The notes beneath the pieces are model-generated. The model had not been told where the DNA came from. It worked only from the letters and a program-made list of their open reading frames with translations, and did no database searches. A stretch of 64,000 nt of DNA from Thermococcus indicus (GTDB lineage: Archaea > Methanobacteriota_B > Thermococci > Thermococcales > Thermococcaceae): contig NZ_CP040846.1 of the NCBI RefSeq assembly GCF_006274605.1, forward strand, positions 806,001 to 870,000, in the 5' to 3' direction. Made by a program: the position numbers and the translations under genes. Positions 1-24,306 of the stretch are shown here, one piece after another (position 1 is the stretch's first letter; every line of letters begins with the position of its first letter).

Positions 1-645
1 GACATCGAATATGCTCCACAGGTCCCTTATGACGTGGAGGTGAGGTATCAATGCCAGCTTTTCGGGGTTCTTCTCCACGAACCTCGCCGTGAACGGGAAG
101 TAGTACCAGACGTACTCGGTGTTCTCGTCGCCGTGGCCCACGAAGCGCCAGGGCTTGTCGTCCACCCAGATGAAAACGTCATCCCCGTATTTCTCGCGAA
201 CAAGTCGAAACGCCTCATCTATGGTCATATCGTGGCCAAAGACGATGACGTCATCGAAGAGGTCGTAGATGCCCATCCGCTTCAGGCGCCGCACCTTCAT
301 GCCATCGATGAAATCCTCCGCCGAGAAGGAGATGACCACGTGGCCATCCTCCCTGAGCTTCTTCAGCAGTTCGACGGAGTCGTCGATGGGCCTCGTGAGC
401 TCGGCCCGCTCCTCGAACCACGCCTCAAAGAACTTTGTACGGAGGAAGAAAGGCGGCCTGCTTTTCTTTTTGTGCTTTCCAAAGGTAGGCCTCTCAAACT
501 GGAGCTCGATTTTAGTCAAGAGCTTTGCCCAGAGGGCCTTTCCGGGAAGCCATCGGTAGCGCCTCTCGAGCGCGCGCCGAAACGCCTCCTCAATGCACGA
601 GTACGTATCCGCCAGAGTTCCGTCGAAGTCGAAAGCTATTATCAT
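1..645 (-). CDS. HAD-superfamily hydrolase, C-terminus outside window
   Basis: The minus frame is open from the ATG at 645 to the window edge, so 215 codons are visible and the end is missing. The N-terminus reads MIIAFDFDGTLADTYSC, which is HAD motif I (DFDGTLAD) with the nucleophile Asp at residue 5. A later VVISFSAED stretch fits motif II, and DDVIVFGH lies where the Rossmann core continues. This family usually hydrolyses small phosphate esters; the substrate cannot be told from the sequence. The region upstream (646-1352) carries no gene, so it is probably transcribed alone or leads a leftward operon. Confidence 0.8.
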   Translation of the reverse strand, partial: MIIAFDFDGTLADTYSCIEEAFRRALERRYRWLPGKALWAKLLTKIELQFERPTFGKHKKKSRPPFFLRTKFFEAWFEERAELTRPIDDSVELLKKLREDGHVVISFSAEDFIDGMKVRRLKRMGIYDLFDDVIVFGHDMTIDEAFRLVREKYGDDVFIWVDDKPWRFVGHGDENTEYVWYYFPFTARFVEKNPEKLALIPHLHVIRDLWSIFDV

Positions 646-2794: not shown

Positions 2795-3617
2795 GGGATT
2801 TTCCGATTATCTCTACCTCCCCAACTTTTTGAACCCCGAAGCTCTCGACCCCGTCGGGAATAACCGTCAAAACCCTCTCGCAGCCAAGAACCTTGGCCCT
2901 CCCCAGGACAGGCCTCACATCCCCAAGCCCGCCCCACAGGAGCAGCGCCAGGCCTTCTCTGCCCGGTAGGTTTCGGAGGGCGTAGTACGAGCCCCTGCTC
3001 CGCCCGCTCTCGACCGTGTGGTGAACCCCGGCGATATTGTCTTTGAACACTGAAAAGAACATGCTGTACGAGCTTTGAAAGCGACCTGCAACCAGTTCGA
3101 GGTTTTTAACGTCTTCCCAACCGAATCCAGTGATTTCCGTTCTCCCGGCCCCTCCGGTGGGGACCCACACAATCGTTCCCGAAAACAGTGCAACACTGAA
3201 GCCGAGCCTCCTGTAGAAGCCCCTGGCAGCGTCATCCGGCTGAACCGTGAGAAGCCGGGCCCCTCTTTCCCCAGCAATCTCCTCGACGAACTCGATGAGC
3301 GCCCTTCCGATACCCCTGCCCCTGTAATCCGGATGAACCTCGATGACGTCAATGTGGGCGATTGACGTAAGCTTCCCGTTAATCGGCTCTTCAGAGAAGA
3401 GAACCTCTACCTCACCTACGATTTCTCCATTCAACTCCGCTACGACGACCAGCTGATTATCCAGCAGGAGGTTGTTGATGTGAATCGCGAGCGTCTCGGC
3501 ACTCATCCATGGCCCGCCCATAGAGTAGCGCCGGTAGAGATTGCCCGCCGGCTCTTCTCCAGCGGTGTGGAGCCTCACTATTCCGGCAACGTCGTCAAGG
3601 GTCGCCAAACGGATCAT
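2787..3617 (-). CDS. GNAT N-acetyltransferase with C-terminal extension
   Basis: The first ~150 residues form a GNAT domain: [17 protein letters not shown] at the start, [17 protein letters not shown] as the acetyl-CoA pyrophosphate loop (R/Q-x-x-G-x-G/A motif), and [10 protein letters not shown] near the end. About 120 further residues contain repeated [11 protein letters not shown]-like strands and are not assigned. The acetyl acceptor is unknown. I chose the second of two consecutive ATGs, because GGTGAG sits 7 nt before it; ATG 3620 and GTG 3629 are alternatives. The start overlaps the end of the phosphoglycolate phosphatase gene, so the two are probably translated from one mRNA. Confidence 0.82.
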
Positions 3618-4332
3618 CATCGCCCTCACCCAGGTGGCCGAACTTCCGAAGGATGTGCATGACCGCCTCGGCCCCGCCGTCGCCGTAGGGCTTTTGAGTG
3701 ACGTAGTCGGCCTTTTCCTTCACGCTCTCAGGGGCTTGGGCTATGGCAACTCTATAACCGACGACGCGGAATGCATCGAGGTCGTTTTCCCCATCCCCGA
3801 CGTGGGCAACTTCCCTAGGACTTATCCCGAGTATCTCACAGGCCTTTTCAATCCCCGCGCCCTTGTTGATCCAGGGCTTCTTGACGTGTATCGCGAAGCC
3901 GGAATCCACCGCGATGAGGTTCAGTCCGAGCTCCCCTATAATCTCCCTGACTGCCCCGACGGGAATCGTTCTCATAATCACAAGCCCGGCCTTCCGCTCA
4001 GGCATCGAGAAGCTCATGACGGCCTCAGGGTAGCGCCTCTTTATCTCGCTCCAGAGAATCCACTCCTCGTCCATCTTCGTCAGGTAAACCCTCTTCCTCA
4101 GCCGTCCGTCTTTTATGGACAGCGCGCCCCCGTCCTCCGCGACAACCGGCCCGCTGGTGCCTATCATTATTGCCATGGCCTCCGCGAACGGTACCGAGTT
4201 GCCGGTGACGAGCATAACAGGGAGGCCCAGACTCTCGGCGAGCCGTATTGCCCTCAAAGCGTTCTCACTGAGTCTCCTGTCGGGATAGGTTATGGTACCG
4301 TCTATGTCAAGCGATATTGCCCTCACCCTCAC
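3595..4332 (-). CDS. Phosphoglycolate phosphatase, archaeal HAD type
   Basis: The 245-residue protein begins with [16 protein letters not shown] (HAD motif I, nucleophile Asp near residue 9). It has VMLVTGNS (motif II) and a late [14 protein letters not shown] (motifs III/IV) with the Cof-type cap between them. This matches the archaeal phosphoglycolate phosphatase group, which clears 2-phosphoglycolate; a broader sugar-phosphate phosphatase role is possible. The start codon is GTG within a GGTGAG-rich stretch. It is upstream of and overlaps the GNAT gene. The tail after [12 protein letters not shown] looks like an unconserved extension. Confidence 0.82.
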
Positions 4333-4382
4333 TCACACCACCGAAAGAAGTTGAGAAGACCCGATAAAAGGGTTGCTGGACA

Positions 4383-19771: not shown

Positions 19772-20581
19772 TCACCTTAGGGCCTCATTTACGAGGGCGT
19801 TTAAAAGCTCAACGATTCTCTCGTGAATGTCGAGGCTTATCCCGTCAACCGTTGGCGTCCTAGTTTTGGAGACCCCGTCTATCAGACCGAGCTTCGAGAT
19901 GGCCCTCACTATTGTCCTCTCGTCCCAGCCGGGGAGCAGTTCTCTGCCGAACTCAATTGACGCCTGAGCCACGAGCCCGTAGGCACCCCAGTTTGAGACC
20001 GCCGAGAGGACCAGCTCATCGGTCTCAACGACGCTTGCTATTTTCTCCCCGTGGGGAACGTATCGGACGACCAGATCCCTTATCCTACCCATCCCCACCT
20101 CGTTTCCACCGTCGCCTATCCCTATCGTGGGAACTCCAAGGTCCCTCGCCCTGAGAACCGCCCAATCAAAAGTTTCCCTCGTTATCCCCATGCCGCTCAT
20201 TGAGTAGTACCTCCCGTCGGCGGCCCTGCCCGGGGTTTCCACCGCGATGACAAGGGAATAGGAGGAAACGCCCGGCTCCCTGACGAACTCCAGTCCAAAG
20301 GCATCGAGTGCATTTTCCACCTCGGGGTAGGTCAGTATCTCCGCCCTGCCGCCGAGGGTTTCAACGGCCTTGGCTATCGCGAGGGTTCCAGGCGGCCCGT
20401 CGGTTTCGGCCCGCATTTCCGGAGGTATGGGAAAGCCCGTGACGATGAGAACGCGTTCATAATTATCCAAAAACAGTTTTGCAGAATTATGTAAAAAATT
20501 GGGGTTCTCCCGGCGGTAGTCGAGGTATACCCTAAGAACCCCCCTGTTCCCAACGTCCGTGTTTATCAGATGTGCTATCAT
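19772..20581 (-). CDS. D-glutamate cyclase-like protein (DUF4392)
   Basis: The 269-residue protein matches the DUF4392 fold of mammalian DGLUCY. Visible blocks are VLIVTGFPIPPEMRAETDGPPGT at 40-62 and GIGDGGNEVGMG near 155-166, which is the glycine-rich catalytic loop, followed by a VVETDELVLSAVSNWGAY segment. In mammals the domain converts D-glutamate to 5-oxo-D-proline; here the substrate is inferred. ATG 20581 is 3 bp from the stop of the 59-residue gene. It is cotranscribed with HAD and HD phosphatases. Confidence 0.8.
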   Translation of the reverse strand: MIAHLINTDVGNRGVLRVYLDYRRENPNFLHNSAKLFLDNYERVLIVTGFPIPPEMRAETDGPPGTLAIAKAVETLGGRAEILTYPEVENALDAFGLEFVREPGVSSYSLVIAVETPGRAADGRYYSMSGMGITRETFDWAVLRARDLGVPTIGIGDGGNEVGMGRIRDLVVRYVPHGEKIASVVETDELVLSAVSNWGAYGLVAQASIEFGRELLPGWDERTIVRAISKLGLIDGVSKTRTPTVDGISLDIHERIVELLNALVNEALR

Positions 20582-20584
20582 GTC

Positions 20585-20764
20585 TCATTCCTCGAGTTCG
20601 TAGACAACTATCCTAACCTTTCTGCCCTTTACCGCCTCTTTAAGCTTCCACCAGAGCTCCGTCGGCTCCTCACTCCTGTGGGTCAGTTCGTGGCCGTTCT
20701 CCAGCTTCACCCCCTTCTCCCGGTACCGGACAAAAACTCCCTCAGCGTTGAATACCTCCCTCAT
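20585..20764 (-). CDS. Small hypothetical protein, 59 residues
   Basis: The ORF encodes MREVFNAEGVFVRYREKGV and ends IVVYELEE. Its start overlaps the HAD stop as ATGA, and its own stop is 3 bp before the next ATG, so it fills the operon exactly. The charge pattern and strands (VFVRYR, KVRIVVYELE) suggest a small alpha/beta fold. I do not recognise the family. Confidence 0.7.
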   Translation of the reverse strand: MREVFNAEGVFVRYREKGVKLENGHELTHRSEEPTELWWKLKEAVKGRKVRIVVYELEE

Positions 20765-21405
20765 TCCAATCCCCCCAGCACTTTTCTCAGCTCGTGAAGC
20801 GTTCTAATCTCGTAGTCCGCCATGTTGTAATCCTCGTCGCCATCCCGGTTTATCCAGACCGCCACCATACCCACGTTCTTGGCCCCGTAAACGTCCTGGC
20901 TCAGGGAGTCCCCCACCATGACGGCCTCCCCGGGCTCAACGCCGAGTTTCTCCAGGGTATAGAGGAATATTTTGGGCTCGGGCTTTATTGCCTTGACGTC
21001 CTCCCGCGTAACGACGACGTCAAAGTAGTCCATTAGACCGGTAAGCCTCAGCTTGAGCCGCTGGTACTCGGGTCCGCTGGTAACGGCCCCAAGCTTATAA
21101 CCGCTCTCCCGCAGCCACTCAAGCACGGGAATCGTATCCGGATAGACGTGGAGCTTGTGAGGGTACCTCTCCATGAGTTCCTCGTAGCGGAGGTCGAGGT
21201 CAAATAGCTCGAAGAAGAAGTTCCAGTCGTGCCAGTCGTAGGTGTCTCTCCTCCCGAATATCTCGCCCAGGAACCGCTCCCTGGCTTCGTCCTTGCTGAT
21301 TCCAAACCGTCTTGAGAGTATGCCATAAACCTGCGGGAGGAACAGCTGAATCAACGGCATCTCGGTCAGCAGAGTCCCGTCGATGTCGAAAAGAACCGCC
21401 TTCAT
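20761..21405 (-). CDS. HAD-superfamily hydrolase
   Basis: The 214-residue protein begins MKAVLFDIDGTLLTE (motif I, Asp near residue 7). It has GAVTSGPE (motif II), IKPEPKIF (motif III Lys) and AVMVGDSLSQDVYGAKNVGM (motif IV Asp pair). An alpha-helical cap follows motif I, as in phosphoglycolate-phosphatase and beta-phosphoglucomutase types. I start it at ATG 21405, behind GGTGATAGA; GTG/ATG codons at 21420 are upstream. It is 8 bp from the FtsZ-like gene. Confidence 0.85.
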   Translation of the reverse strand: MKAVLFDIDGTLLTEMPLIQLFLPQVYGILSRRFGISKDEARERFLGEIFGRRDTYDWHDWNFFFELFDLDLRYEELMERYPHKLHVYPDTIPVLEWLRESGYKLGAVTSGPEYQRLKLRLTGLMDYFDVVVTREDVKAIKPEPKIFLYTLEKLGVEPGEAVMVGDSLSQDVYGAKNVGMVAVWINRDGDEDYNMADYEIRTLHELRKVLGGLE

Positions 21406-21413
21406 TCTATCAC

Positions 21414-22169
21414 CTACCACTTCTTAACCAGCAGTGCCAGTATCTCAACCTCTCTGTCCAGGTTATCGTCAACGATGACGCCCCATATTATATCCTTCTC
21501 GGACAGTATCTCCTGAAAGTTCTTAAGTATTCTATGGGCGTTCATCAGGGGAAATTCCCTTCCAACAAGTATCCCCAAAAGCCCCCTCTCCCAAACACCC
21601 CAGTGCCATCTGAAATCAACTTTTTTCAGGATCCTCAAAATCCCCACGTTTCCTCCGTTTATTATGTTGAAGAGGTCGGCGTAATCTATGTTAACGAGCA
21701 TCTGGGACTCAAGATAATAATGGAGCCTGGAAAACATGTCCGCTATGCTCCTTGAGGCGGTATAAAACGCCGTGGCAAGGGGCTCATCTGAGTTCCCAAA
21801 GAAGTCCCACAGAGAGTCATAGAACACCGTTCGGAAATCCTCCGCCCATTTCGGTTTTCTCTCCATAAAAAGCTCCCGTTTAGGCGTTATTACGTATGCA
21901 AGGTTTATGGTGTCGCTCGGTACACTGTCAATTATAATCTCCCTCGCGATGTGGTTGGCCTCTTTATCCTCAAATATGAGCCACAAAAAGGTGTTTCTGG
22001 GAACCTTGGAGAAAAAGTCTCTCAGTTTTTCTTCGTATTCCCCCGCACGGGGCATTAGCAGATAGGCAGGGTTTATGGTAACCCGAACTGCCCCATCGGC
22101 ATGGATGTTATTCACGATTCTACTTCCAGCGTTCCCGATTCCAACGAAGACGTGAATATAGGGGGGCAT
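21414..22169 (-). CDS. Degenerate FtsZ/tubulin-fold protein
   Basis: The 251-residue protein keeps three FtsZ landmarks: HVFVGIGNAGSRIVNNI (7-22, like the FtsZ GVGGGGSNAV loop), LVNIDYADLFNIINGGNVGIL (158-178, the T7/activation loop region, compare NVDFADVKTVM), and DIIWGVIVDDNLDREVEI (226-243, like ANIIFGAVIDE). The GGGTGTG nucleotide-binding signature is missing; its place holds NTFLWLIFEDKEANHIA (59-75). The protein is also about 120 residues shorter than FtsZ. I infer a non-canonical relative that may not bind GTP in the usual way. It sits upstream of the HAD gene. Confidence 0.6.
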   Translation of the reverse strand: MPPYIHVFVGIGNAGSRIVNNIHADGAVRVTINPAYLLMPRAGEYEEKLRDFFSKVPRNTFLWLIFEDKEANHIAREIIIDSVPSDTINLAYVITPKRELFMERKPKWAEDFRTVFYDSLWDFFGNSDEPLATAFYTASRSIADMFSRLHYYLESQMLVNIDYADLFNIINGGNVGILRILKKVDFRWHWGVWERGLLGILVGREFPLMNAHRILKNFQEILSEKDIIWGVIVDDNLDREVEILALLVKKW

Positions 22170-22220: not shown

Positions 22221-23441
22221 TCACTCAAGGGTCGCGTGCTTCTTCTTCATATCCTTCTCCGTCTTCTGGAAGGTGGCCATGAGGAGGGCTATGACCCCGT
22301 CGAGGAATATCATGGTGGAGTCCTCGAAGAGGGTTCCCATCGGGGCTATCCACTTGTACTTGGTGAGCATCTGGCGCGCTATGTAGTCTGTCGGGATGTC
22401 GGTCTTGGCCCTTCCGGGTATCTCGACGACCACATCGGCGAGCTTTCCAAGGGTTGAATTGGCGTAGGAGGTTATCGCGACCACTTTACCTCCCTGCTTC
22501 TTGGCTATTCCGGCTGCATCAACGATGCTGTTGGTCTCACCGGAACCACTGATGGCTATGAGCAGATCGCCCGGCTCGAAGGCCGGCGTTATGGTCTCAC
22601 CAACGACGTAGACGTTGAAGTCAAGGTGCATGAGCCTCATAGCAAAGGCCTTACCGACGAGGCCGCTCCTTCCCGCGCCGTAGATGAATATCTTGTTCGC
22701 TCCAATCATGGCATCGACGAAGCCGCGAACCTGCTCCAGCTTGAGGCTCTCCGAGACGTTGTGTATGTGGTCGATTATGTCGTCCATCGCTTTCCTTATG
22801 GTCATCATGTACTCGCCCCAGAAGAGGTCGATTATCTTCCTCGTAACCTCATCCGGCTTCTCAGCCTTGGTTATCGCGCCTCCGACGATTATTATCGTGG
22901 CCCCCAGCTCAATGACCTTCGGTATGGTCTGGAGGTTCAGTCCGCCGGCGACGGCAACGGGGACGCTGACGGCTTTAACGACCTTCTCCAGGTCCTCCAG
23001 CGGGCTCTTGCCCTGAACCTGCTCGTCTATGCCCGTGTGGACGAGTATGTAGTGAACGCCCATCTTCTCGAGTTCCTTGGCGCGCTTGACCTTGTCCTTA
23101 ACGCCTATGAGGTCAACCATGACCCTGATTCCATAGCGCCTTGCAACATCAACCGCGTCCTTTATCGTCTTGTCATCGGCGACACCGAGGATAGAAACGA
23201 CATCGGCACCGTGCCTGGCCGCCATCTCGACCTCCAGAGCGCCGGTGTCCATGGTTTTTAGGTCGGCAACGATCTTCCTGTCCGGGAAGCGCCTCTTGAG
23301 AAGCTCCACAGCGCGCATGCCCTCCTTCTTGATGAGCGGGGTTCCAACCTCGAGCCAGTGGGCACCGCCGCGGGCGGCCTTCTCAGCGATAGAAATGGCC
23401 TGCTCAATGTCAGTCAGATCAAGGGCAACCTGAAGTATCAT
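22221..23441 (-). CDS. hps-phi: Bifunctional hexulose-6-P synthase / phosphohexuloisomerase
   Basis: The 406-residue fusion has an N-terminal HPS TIM barrel (residues 1-~210: MILQVALDLTD, VADLKTMDTG, VHTGIDEQ, VAVAGGLN) and a C-terminal PHI sugar-isomerase (SIS) domain (YGAGRSGLVGKAFAMRL, AISGSGETNS). It makes ribulose-5-phosphate from fructose-6-phosphate in reverse of the RuMP route, the pentose source of Thermococcales, and can fix formaldehyde. The start at 23441 has GGAGGCGAGGAG. The divergent gene at 23581 shares the 140-bp promoter gap. Confidence 0.96.
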   Translation of the reverse strand: MILQVALDLTDIEQAISIAEKAARGGAHWLEVGTPLIKKEGMRAVELLKRRFPDRKIVADLKTMDTGALEVEMAARHGADVVSILGVADDKTIKDAVDVARRYGIRVMVDLIGVKDKVKRAKELEKMGVHYILVHTGIDEQVQGKSPLEDLEKVVKAVSVPVAVAGGLNLQTIPKVIELGATIIIVGGAITKAEKPDEVTRKIIDLFWGEYMMTIRKAMDDIIDHIHNVSESLKLEQVRGFVDAMIGANKIFIYGAGRSGLVGKAFAMRLMHLDFNVYVVGETITPAFEPGDLLIAISGSGETNSIVDAAGIAKKQGGKVVAITSYANSTLGKLADVVVEIPGRAKTDIPTDYIARQMLTKYKWIAPMGTLFEDSTMIFLDGVIALLMATFQKTEKDMKKKHATLE

Positions 23442-23580
23442 CTCCTCGCCTCCGAAGAGTTTTCGATTTAACCTCAGAATGCTACTTTTTAAACTTTGGC
23501 GTCGCGAATTAACATTTAAATGTCCAAATACAGCGCCAAGGTTTAAAAGCCCGAGTGCCAACACGGGTCGGTGGAATCAA
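23442..23580. promoter_or_regulatory. Divergent promoter region
   Basis: The gap separates the minus-strand hps-phi start from the plus-strand arginase-fold gene. AT-rich TATA-like boxes are present: ACATTTAAATG at about 23512-23522 for the plus gene, and TTTTTAAAC near 23490 on the minus side. No other gene fits here. Confidence 0.45.
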
Positions 23581-24306
23581 ATGGTGACGTTCATTCCCTT
23601 CGGCGAAAAGCCAAACCGCGACGGTGTTCTCTACGTTCTTCAGCTCCTCAAAAGGAACAAACTCATAGAGGATTACATGATAGTTGAATCGAGCAGGGTC
23701 GAGCTTCTGGCCGAGAGGATTCCCCAGGACAGCGCGTACATAATAGGGGAGCACCTCGCCACGTACGGAATAGTTGAAAAGCTCAGGCCCCAGTCCCTCA
23801 TAAGCGTCGATGCCCACACCGACCTGATGCACGACTACCTCGACCACGGCTCGTGGCTGGCCTATACCCTTGAGGAGCGCCTCGTAAACCGGGCCGTCGT
23901 CCTCGCCCCCGTCCTCATGATACCGACCACCGAGAGGACTCAGCTCTGGACGCGGCGCGTCAAGATATTTCCCGCCCTCCTGAGGAGCAGGAAAGTCCGC
24001 GGGAAGTGGAAGGCCTATAAGAACCTTCAGACAAACGACCTGCTCGAGATACTCGACGAGTCCAAGAAGTACCTCGGTGACGAGGTTTACCTCACCGTGG
24101 ACATGGACGTTCTAAGGCCCGAGTACAAAATCGCCCGCTTCCAACACGGCGAGCTTACGCTTGAAGAGCTCCTGGAGCTTTTGGAGGGGATCAAGGAGAA
24201 CTTCAGGATAGCGGCTTTTGACATCGCCGAGGTCTCGGACAGGATAAGGCGTTCGAGACTCGGGAAGAAGGCATTCGTCGAGGTGTTCCAGCTCCTGACG
24301 GGGTGA
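23581..24306 (+). CDS. Arginase/agmatinase-fold protein
   Basis: The 241-residue protein follows the ureohydrolase layout but is short. The metal motif SVDAHTDLMHDYLDHGSW (75-92) matches DAHxD...HG, and YLTVDMDVLRPEY matches the DxDxxDP motif, but GGDHS is reduced to GEHLATYG (56-63) and the final E is less clear. The family hydrolyses guanidino compounds with two Mn; the substrate here is unknown. ATG 23581 follows GGTGGAATCAA. The Zn-ribbon gene starts 5 bp after its stop, so the two form an operon with the wHTH gene. Confidence 0.68.
   Translation: MVTFIPFGEKPNRDGVLYVLQLLKRNKLIEDYMIVESSRVELLAERIPQDSAYIIGEHLATYGIVEKLRPQSLISVDAHTDLMHDYLDHGSWLAYTLEERLVNRAVVLAPVLMIPTTERTQLWTRRVKIFPALLRSRKVRGKWKAYKNLQTNDLLEILDESKKYLGDEVYLTVDMDVLRPEYKIARFQHGELTLEELLELLEGIKENFRIAAFDIAEVSDRIRRSRLGKKAFVEVFQLLTG

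Follow-up and report, generated by a model that had tools for sequence, protein, structure and literature searches.

A predicted GTP-site-less FtsZ paralogue of Thermococcaceae keeps an invariant T7 loop and may regulate division filaments

What can a relative of FtsZ still do once the signature with which FtsZ binds GTP is gone? The question is raised by a 64,000-nucleotide stretch of the Thermococcus indicus genome (NZ_CP040846.1, positions 806,001 to 870,000; hereafter the window), in which an open reading frame on the minus strand (21414..22169, start codon ATG) encodes a 251-residue FtsZ paralogue of tubulin fold, predicted to lack a GTP site, that we label TSF. The original prediction, made from the sequence alone, described it as a shortened FtsZ relative that keeps three landmarks and has lost GGGTGTG, and each of these points held up. 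GIGNAG lies at residues 10-15, VNIDYADLFNIIN at residues 159-171 and IIWGVIVDDNL at residues 227-237; GGGTGTG is absent from the protein; and the segment named as its replacement, LWLIFEDKEA (residues 62-71), aligns to the strand and loop whose last residues in FtsZ are GGGTGTG. TSF is shorter than FtsZ1, FtsZ2 and CetZ (385, 422 and 389 residues, respectively), all of which are encoded by the same genome, so that the full FtsZ to be sought elsewhere in the genome is indeed there. At the C-terminus, no FtsZ-type tail beyond the core was found among 56 distinct TSF sequences: 48 end at core residue Trp251, and the remaining ones end 2-12 residues later. In FtsZ, this tail is the docking site of SepF and FtsA.

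An AlphaFold comparison had been set beforehand as the test able to overturn the FtsZ assignment. The AlphaFold2 model of TSF, for which a 48-row family alignment (built from 48 of the 59 loci then collected) served as input, has a mean pLDDT of 87.9 and a pTM of 0.87; confidence drops around T7, where a block of ten residues lies near 68. The 50 Foldseek matches listed for the model are FtsZ (best E 7e-12). VIA-align, which re-ranks Foldseek matches and whose Z scores do not exclude other folds, gave a Z of 20.1 against Pseudomonas aeruginosa FtsZ (1ofu_A; 3.3 A, 243 of 251 residues aligned) and 20.0 against CetZ (3zid_A). A second model, of a TSF member 46% identical to the first, reached a pTM of 0.87 and a best Z of 20.4. 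As modelled, the tubulin/FtsZ fold, with its Rossmann-type N-domain, central helix H7 and C-terminal domain, spans the whole length of TSF. It is present in both models, and the FtsZ assignment was not overturned by this test.

Recognition of the family by sequence is less direct. With a single sequence, the Pfam models do not reach their thresholds (14.8 of 27 bits for FtsZ_C and 14.2 of 33 for Tubulin), and TSF would go unrecognised in annotation based on them. The NCBIfam ftsZ model TIGR00065 scored 20.5 bits against a cut-off of 295.2, and Pfam Tubulin_2 matched one of 48 TSF members, with E 0.38. A profile of the 48 members, by contrast, retrieved Methanocaldococcus jannaschii FtsZ from the PDB set with E = 2e-7; two sequence searches found no solved TSF structure among the sequences of that set. 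The similarity between TSF and FtsZ is not due to chance, and the claimed kinship is borne out by both profile and predicted fold. TSF is a member of the tubulin superfamily by fold and descent, and it is not an FtsZ by the defining GTP box.

We compared the nucleotide site in a joint alignment of 18 of the 59 TSF sequences with the first eight sequences each of FtsZ1, FtsZ2 and CetZ, assigning to the residues of T3-T6 and H7 the functional roles that they have in FtsZ. In this alignment, which is less certain in the N-domain than in the C-terminal half, 121 columns are invariant in the 16 FtsZ1 and FtsZ2 sequences, and 12 of them are kept in all 18 TSF rows: G10, G12, G15, P96, D118, A134, A138, N160, D162, D165, W229 and G230. 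None of the seven FtsZ-invariant T4 columns is retained. Where FtsZ has the T3 stretch and the Glu and Arg on the ribose side, the TSF rows have gaps; the base-contact Asn of T6 is Tyr, and the guanine-reading Asp of H7 is replaced by Ser, Ala, Thr or Gly (Glu138, Arg142 and Asn207 of FtsZ are discussed in PMC10333351). The T4 position of GGGTGTG is taken by the strand and loop LWLIFEDKEAN (residues 62-72; 21954..21986, minus strand like all the segments located below), in which W63 and N72 are identical in all 59 TSF rows. Among the 56 distinct sequences, GG(x)(T/S)G-like matches are confined to T1, with none at T4. The sole glycine loop retained is the T1-like loop G10-I-G12-x-x-G15 (22125..22142), invariant in 59 of 59 TSF and 16 of 16 FtsZ1/2 sequences. 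By these alignments, both phosphate loops, T3 and T4, are lost together with the contacts to ribose and guanine, and TSF is predicted to have lost GTP binding and GTP-dependent polymerisation.

The same alignments show strict retention of the T7 residues. In the T7 catalytic loop MLVNIDYAD (residues 157-165; 21675..21701), the FtsZ pattern N-x-D-x-x-D (N160, D162 and D165) is identical in all 59 TSF rows and in all 16 FtsZ1/2 sequences. Two papers give this loop its meaning: GTP bound to the lower FtsZ subunit is hydrolysed by the upper one, whose T7 loop lies near that nucleotide (PMC11239868), and the hydrolysis motif of T7 is NVDFAD, with T7 mutations said to disrupt polymerisation and not GTP binding (PMC3684127). 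Given that T7 acts on the neighbour's GTP and that TSF's own phosphate loops are gone, TSF would have the acting face of an FtsZ subunit without the holding face.

T7 is not the only constrained part of the protein. In the 59 rows, 51 of 251 columns are identical, including the pocket-side residues G10, G12, G15, N72, P96, E99, W108, Y117, D118 and S119. By column entropy, the most conserved window is T6 (residues 112-121), not T7; its segment FRTVFYDS (residues 112-119; 21813..21836) defines a family signature, FxTVFYDS, with six of eight columns invariant, compared with six of nine in the T7 window 157-165. Nominal hypergeometric values are 0.001 for residues 112-119 and 0.003 for residues 157-165, both windows having been chosen after inspection. 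At the position of FtsZ helix H9, in a region that is shorter in TSF than in FtsZ in the joint alignment, lies the family-specific motif WHWGVWERG (residues 188-196; 21582..21608), whose W188, W190, G191, W193 and G196 occur in 59 of 59 rows. The S9 strand KDIIWG (residues 225-230; 21480..21497) carries W229 and G230 in all 59 TSF and all 16 FtsZ1/2 sequences. With T6 the most conserved part and WHWGxWERG lacking an FtsZ counterpart, other surfaces of TSF would seem to matter as much as T7, and both signatures tend to count against a reading drawn from T7 alone.

To place TSF among its paralogues, we scored them with the family profile, leaving out one FtsZ2 row (L088) that came out only 2 residues long. 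The window genome's own proteins scored 34.6 bits (FtsZ2), 28.9 bits (FtsZ1) and 1.7 bits (CetZ), within overall ranges of 29.6-42.9, 26.7-32.3 and 1.7-7.5 bits, respectively, which points to FtsZ2, and not CetZ, as the nearest paralogue. TSF shares with archaeal FtsZ2 and FtsZ1 (TIGR00065) the fold, the T1 glycines, the T7 N-x-D-x-x-D and the S9 WG, but it lacks their T3, their T4 GGGTGTG and their ribose and guanine contacts, has WHWGxWERG in place of H9 and, in most members, has no C-terminal tail. CetZ shares the fold (Z 20.0) with almost no sequence similarity (1.7 bits), and it keeps the GTP box and has no T7 Asn.

The closest described case that we found is the Nitrosopumilus maritimus FtsZ Nmar_1262 (PMC3684127), likewise a relative of FtsZ from an archaeon in which the GTP-binding motif is not conserved. 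That protein has also lost T7, and it did not polymerise when expressed in yeast, whereas in TSF the Asn and the two Asp of T7 are retained in all 59 rows. Brown and Duggin (2023; PMC9856176) mention an extra tubulin-superfamily protein, a 'highly divergent TSF protein', in Thermococcus AM4 and T. gammatolerans; their protein is given for two strains only, and it may or may not be the same gene as the present TSF. The available sections of Makarova and Koonin (2010) and of the 2015 arCOG paper contain no description of TSF. No GTP-site-less FtsZ-type protein that keeps T7 was found in the literature searched, the coverage of which stopped short of most subscription journals and preprints.

The one-sided loss, with phosphate loops gone and T7 invariant, is consistent with a cap or partner of FtsZ or CetZ, one of the two roles put forward in the original prediction. 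Found in nearly all Thermococcaceae genomes examined, this loss of the GTP face with retention of the T7 loop suggests a protein that naturally stops or regulates division filaments. We tentatively favour a reading in which TSF is an FtsZ2-derived, one-sided subunit that binds the end of an FtsZ filament where GTP is exposed and caps or destabilises filaments. TSF would dock, T7 side first, onto the last FtsZ of the filament at the face that carries GTP, and we infer that FtsZ2 is the first candidate partner; in Haloferax, constriction has been linked to FtsZ2 (PMC7617429). Having no nucleotide face, TSF would not accept the next subunit, and the filament end would be capped. The aspartates of T7 may, in addition, stimulate hydrolysis of the terminal GTP, by which filaments would be limited or turned over. 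The comparison of the lower interface with FtsZ covered only T7, the residues of which might instead be kept for structure. A functional model exists in ARC3 of plant chloroplasts, which has an FtsZ-like domain (PMC4593956) and, as worded in a title in that paper's reference list, regulates FtsZ-ring assembly through FtsZ2. As a modified FtsZ-like regulator of FtsZ-ring assembly, ARC3 is comparable to the role proposed for TSF, and the comparison extends to the FtsZ fold; ARC3 differs from TSF in being a chimeric plant protein. Should TSF cap FtsZ, it would be an end regulator derived from a paralogue, linking central carbon metabolism to division in Thermococcales.

The gene neighbourhood counts against capping, in that the tightest linkage of TSF is to sugar-phosphate enzymes and not to division genes. 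Upstream lies a fused 3-hexulose-6-phosphate synthase/6-phospho-3-hexuloisomerase (HPS-PHI; 22221..23441; NCBIfam NF041755, 551.7 bits, cut-off 500) and downstream a HAD-family phosphatase (20761..21405; TIGR02253, 186.9 bits, cut-off 169.75). In the window, 51 nucleotides separate HPS-PHI from TSF and 8 nucleotides separate the TSF stop from the HAD gene. The order HPS-PHI, TSF, HAD phosphatase on one strand recurs in 64 of 64 scored loci, a number that counts some genomes twice (e.g., L005/L045 and L010/L063) and leaves out L098 (HPS-PHI match of 30 residues) and L102 and L103 (without TSF). The TSF-HAD gap ranges from -29 to +8 nucleotides in all 64, and the HPS-PHI-TSF gap is at most 56 nucleotides in 61, the exceptions being L009 (187), L046 (833) and L097, a frameshift artefact. 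At L097, in genome G074, HPS-PHI and TSF form a single 662-residue frame, which we considered as a fusion and rejected: a homopolymer (around 3185) just upstream of the HPS-PHI stop has 7 A, compared with 6 A in G077, and the joined frame is probably a frameshift or sequencing error. Further along the minus strand, the window encodes a D-glutamate cyclase-like protein (19772-20581; PF14336, 226 bits), the gene for which directly follows HAD in most, but not all, loci and may extend the operon. An arginase/agmatinase-like gene (23578-24306, plus strand), well under the family cut-offs (42.9 of 174.3 bits), diverges from HPS-PHI; its position next to the operon is conserved in many loci, though not in every one.

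Of 94 genomes of Thermococcaceae, 89 encode TSF (whole or nearly so in 88, cut in G064), and all six genera are represented. It was found in none of 21 further genomes of the class, where searches returned weak FtsZ-type matches or, in one genome, none; in the Thermococcaceae genomes without TSF, the matches were canonical FtsZ or none. HPS-PHI is missing in three of the five TSF-less genomes (G035, G049, G056, G061 and G063) and cut at a contig end in the other two, which makes assembly gaps the likely cause, although real loss is not excluded in G049 and G056 (96% and 91% complete). Outside Thermococcaceae, no full-length HPS-PHI match was seen in the 21 other genomes of the class, 12 of which have partial HPS-like or PHI-like matches.

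The original prediction also allowed for a different ligand, with which the invariance of the T1 glycine loop and of several pocket-side residues would agree. It is quite possible that TSF has no filament role and instead serves the pentose pathway as a sensor of a ligand or as an adaptor: its pocket would bind a metabolite (a sugar phosphate or another nucleotide), and TSF would regulate HPS-PHI and the HAD phosphatase or act as their scaffold. The fixed neighbours and tight spacing in all 64 scored loci, the taxonomic range shared with fused HPS-PHI, and the invariance of the T1 glycines and pocket-side residues in 59 of 59 rows all argue for such a role. However, sensing alone does not explain the strict FtsZ-type T7 signature, and within one family, a conserved gene order may simply have been inherited with the operon, the genes not being coupled in function. 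A sensor thus explains the neighbourhood better than an end cap and T7 worse, and both can hold together. If TSF is a metabolite sensor, a cytoskeletal fold has been turned into a metabolic regulator.

In these archaea, HPS-PHI converts fructose-6-phosphate to ribulose-5-phosphate and formaldehyde and supplies ribose-5-phosphate for nucleotides (PMC12628685). The conserved operon suggests that the ribulose-5-phosphate/ribose-5-phosphate pathway may set the amount of TSF or the level of a ligand bound in the remodelled pocket, which would tie division to nucleotide supply. The fully elaborated version, in which TSF is an end cap in trans and a GTPase activator of FtsZ2 filaments, and in which the operon connects it with the synthesis of pentoses and nucleotides and makes division depend on the supply of ribose-5-phosphate, is unlikely. 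UgtP and OpgH, products of metabolic genes, couple the assembly of FtsZ to the carbon status of the cell; both are sugar transferases and not FtsZ paralogues. Whether cap or sensor, the answer is testable with one small protein, and Thermococcus kodakarensis offers a host with working genetics.

Self-assembly of TSF into filaments of its own, without GTP or with another nucleotide, would fit the retention of the whole fold, the conservation of both faces and the T1 glycine loop. We regard it as quite unlikely, since T3 is deleted and the T4 box is replaced, and these loops hold the polymer-driving nucleotide in known superfamily members; the stop at the core Trp in 48 of 56 distinct sequences, without a C-terminal tail, also speaks against it. 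Another kind of FtsZ partnership, as a lateral or membrane-side binder, a nucleator or a chaperone acting through the WHWGxWERG surface, would account for the invariant tryptophans and glycines at the H9 position, yet it leaves the retention of T7 unexplained, and we consider it very unlikely.

Finally, that TSF is a decaying FtsZ relic is barely credible: the lost GTP site and one extra broken copy in one assembly (G069) would fit decay, but 13 of 15 close TSF pairs have a dN/dS of 0.02-0.15 (the other two being saturated), 51 of 251 columns are invariant, and the gene occurs in 89 of 94 genomes and six of six genera. The TSF gene is intact and under purifying selection.

Genome G069 carries an intact TSF locus on contig C3 and the second, broken locus, L098, on C2 (G069:C2:357500-365500, about 3448-4348). 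The DNA of the latter matches that of the window with about 85% identity; its TSF is broken into two reading frames and contains an in-frame TGA, and of its HPS-PHI only about 30 C-terminal residues are left; this copy could be a duplicate, an import or the product of a mixed assembly. A plasmid search with the broken locus gave no match, and one with TSF gave no close relative but two weak Haloarcula matches (24-25% identity over 64-69% of the query), among them a protein annotated as FtsZ (NZ_CP073371.1 49269-49832; 24%). A viral origin was considered and rejected: a scan of viral contigs with the family alignment yielded 46 pattern matches, and no relative was among them. PF0219, tried as a candidate locus tag for the TSF locus, is QueD and unrelated. 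In genome G004, a 1134-residue protein (L104:399-3803, minus strand) matches Tubulin_2 with 52.8 bits and has its GLGGGTGSG box intact; in a PF00091 search, the box was shown by only one of 11 relatives.
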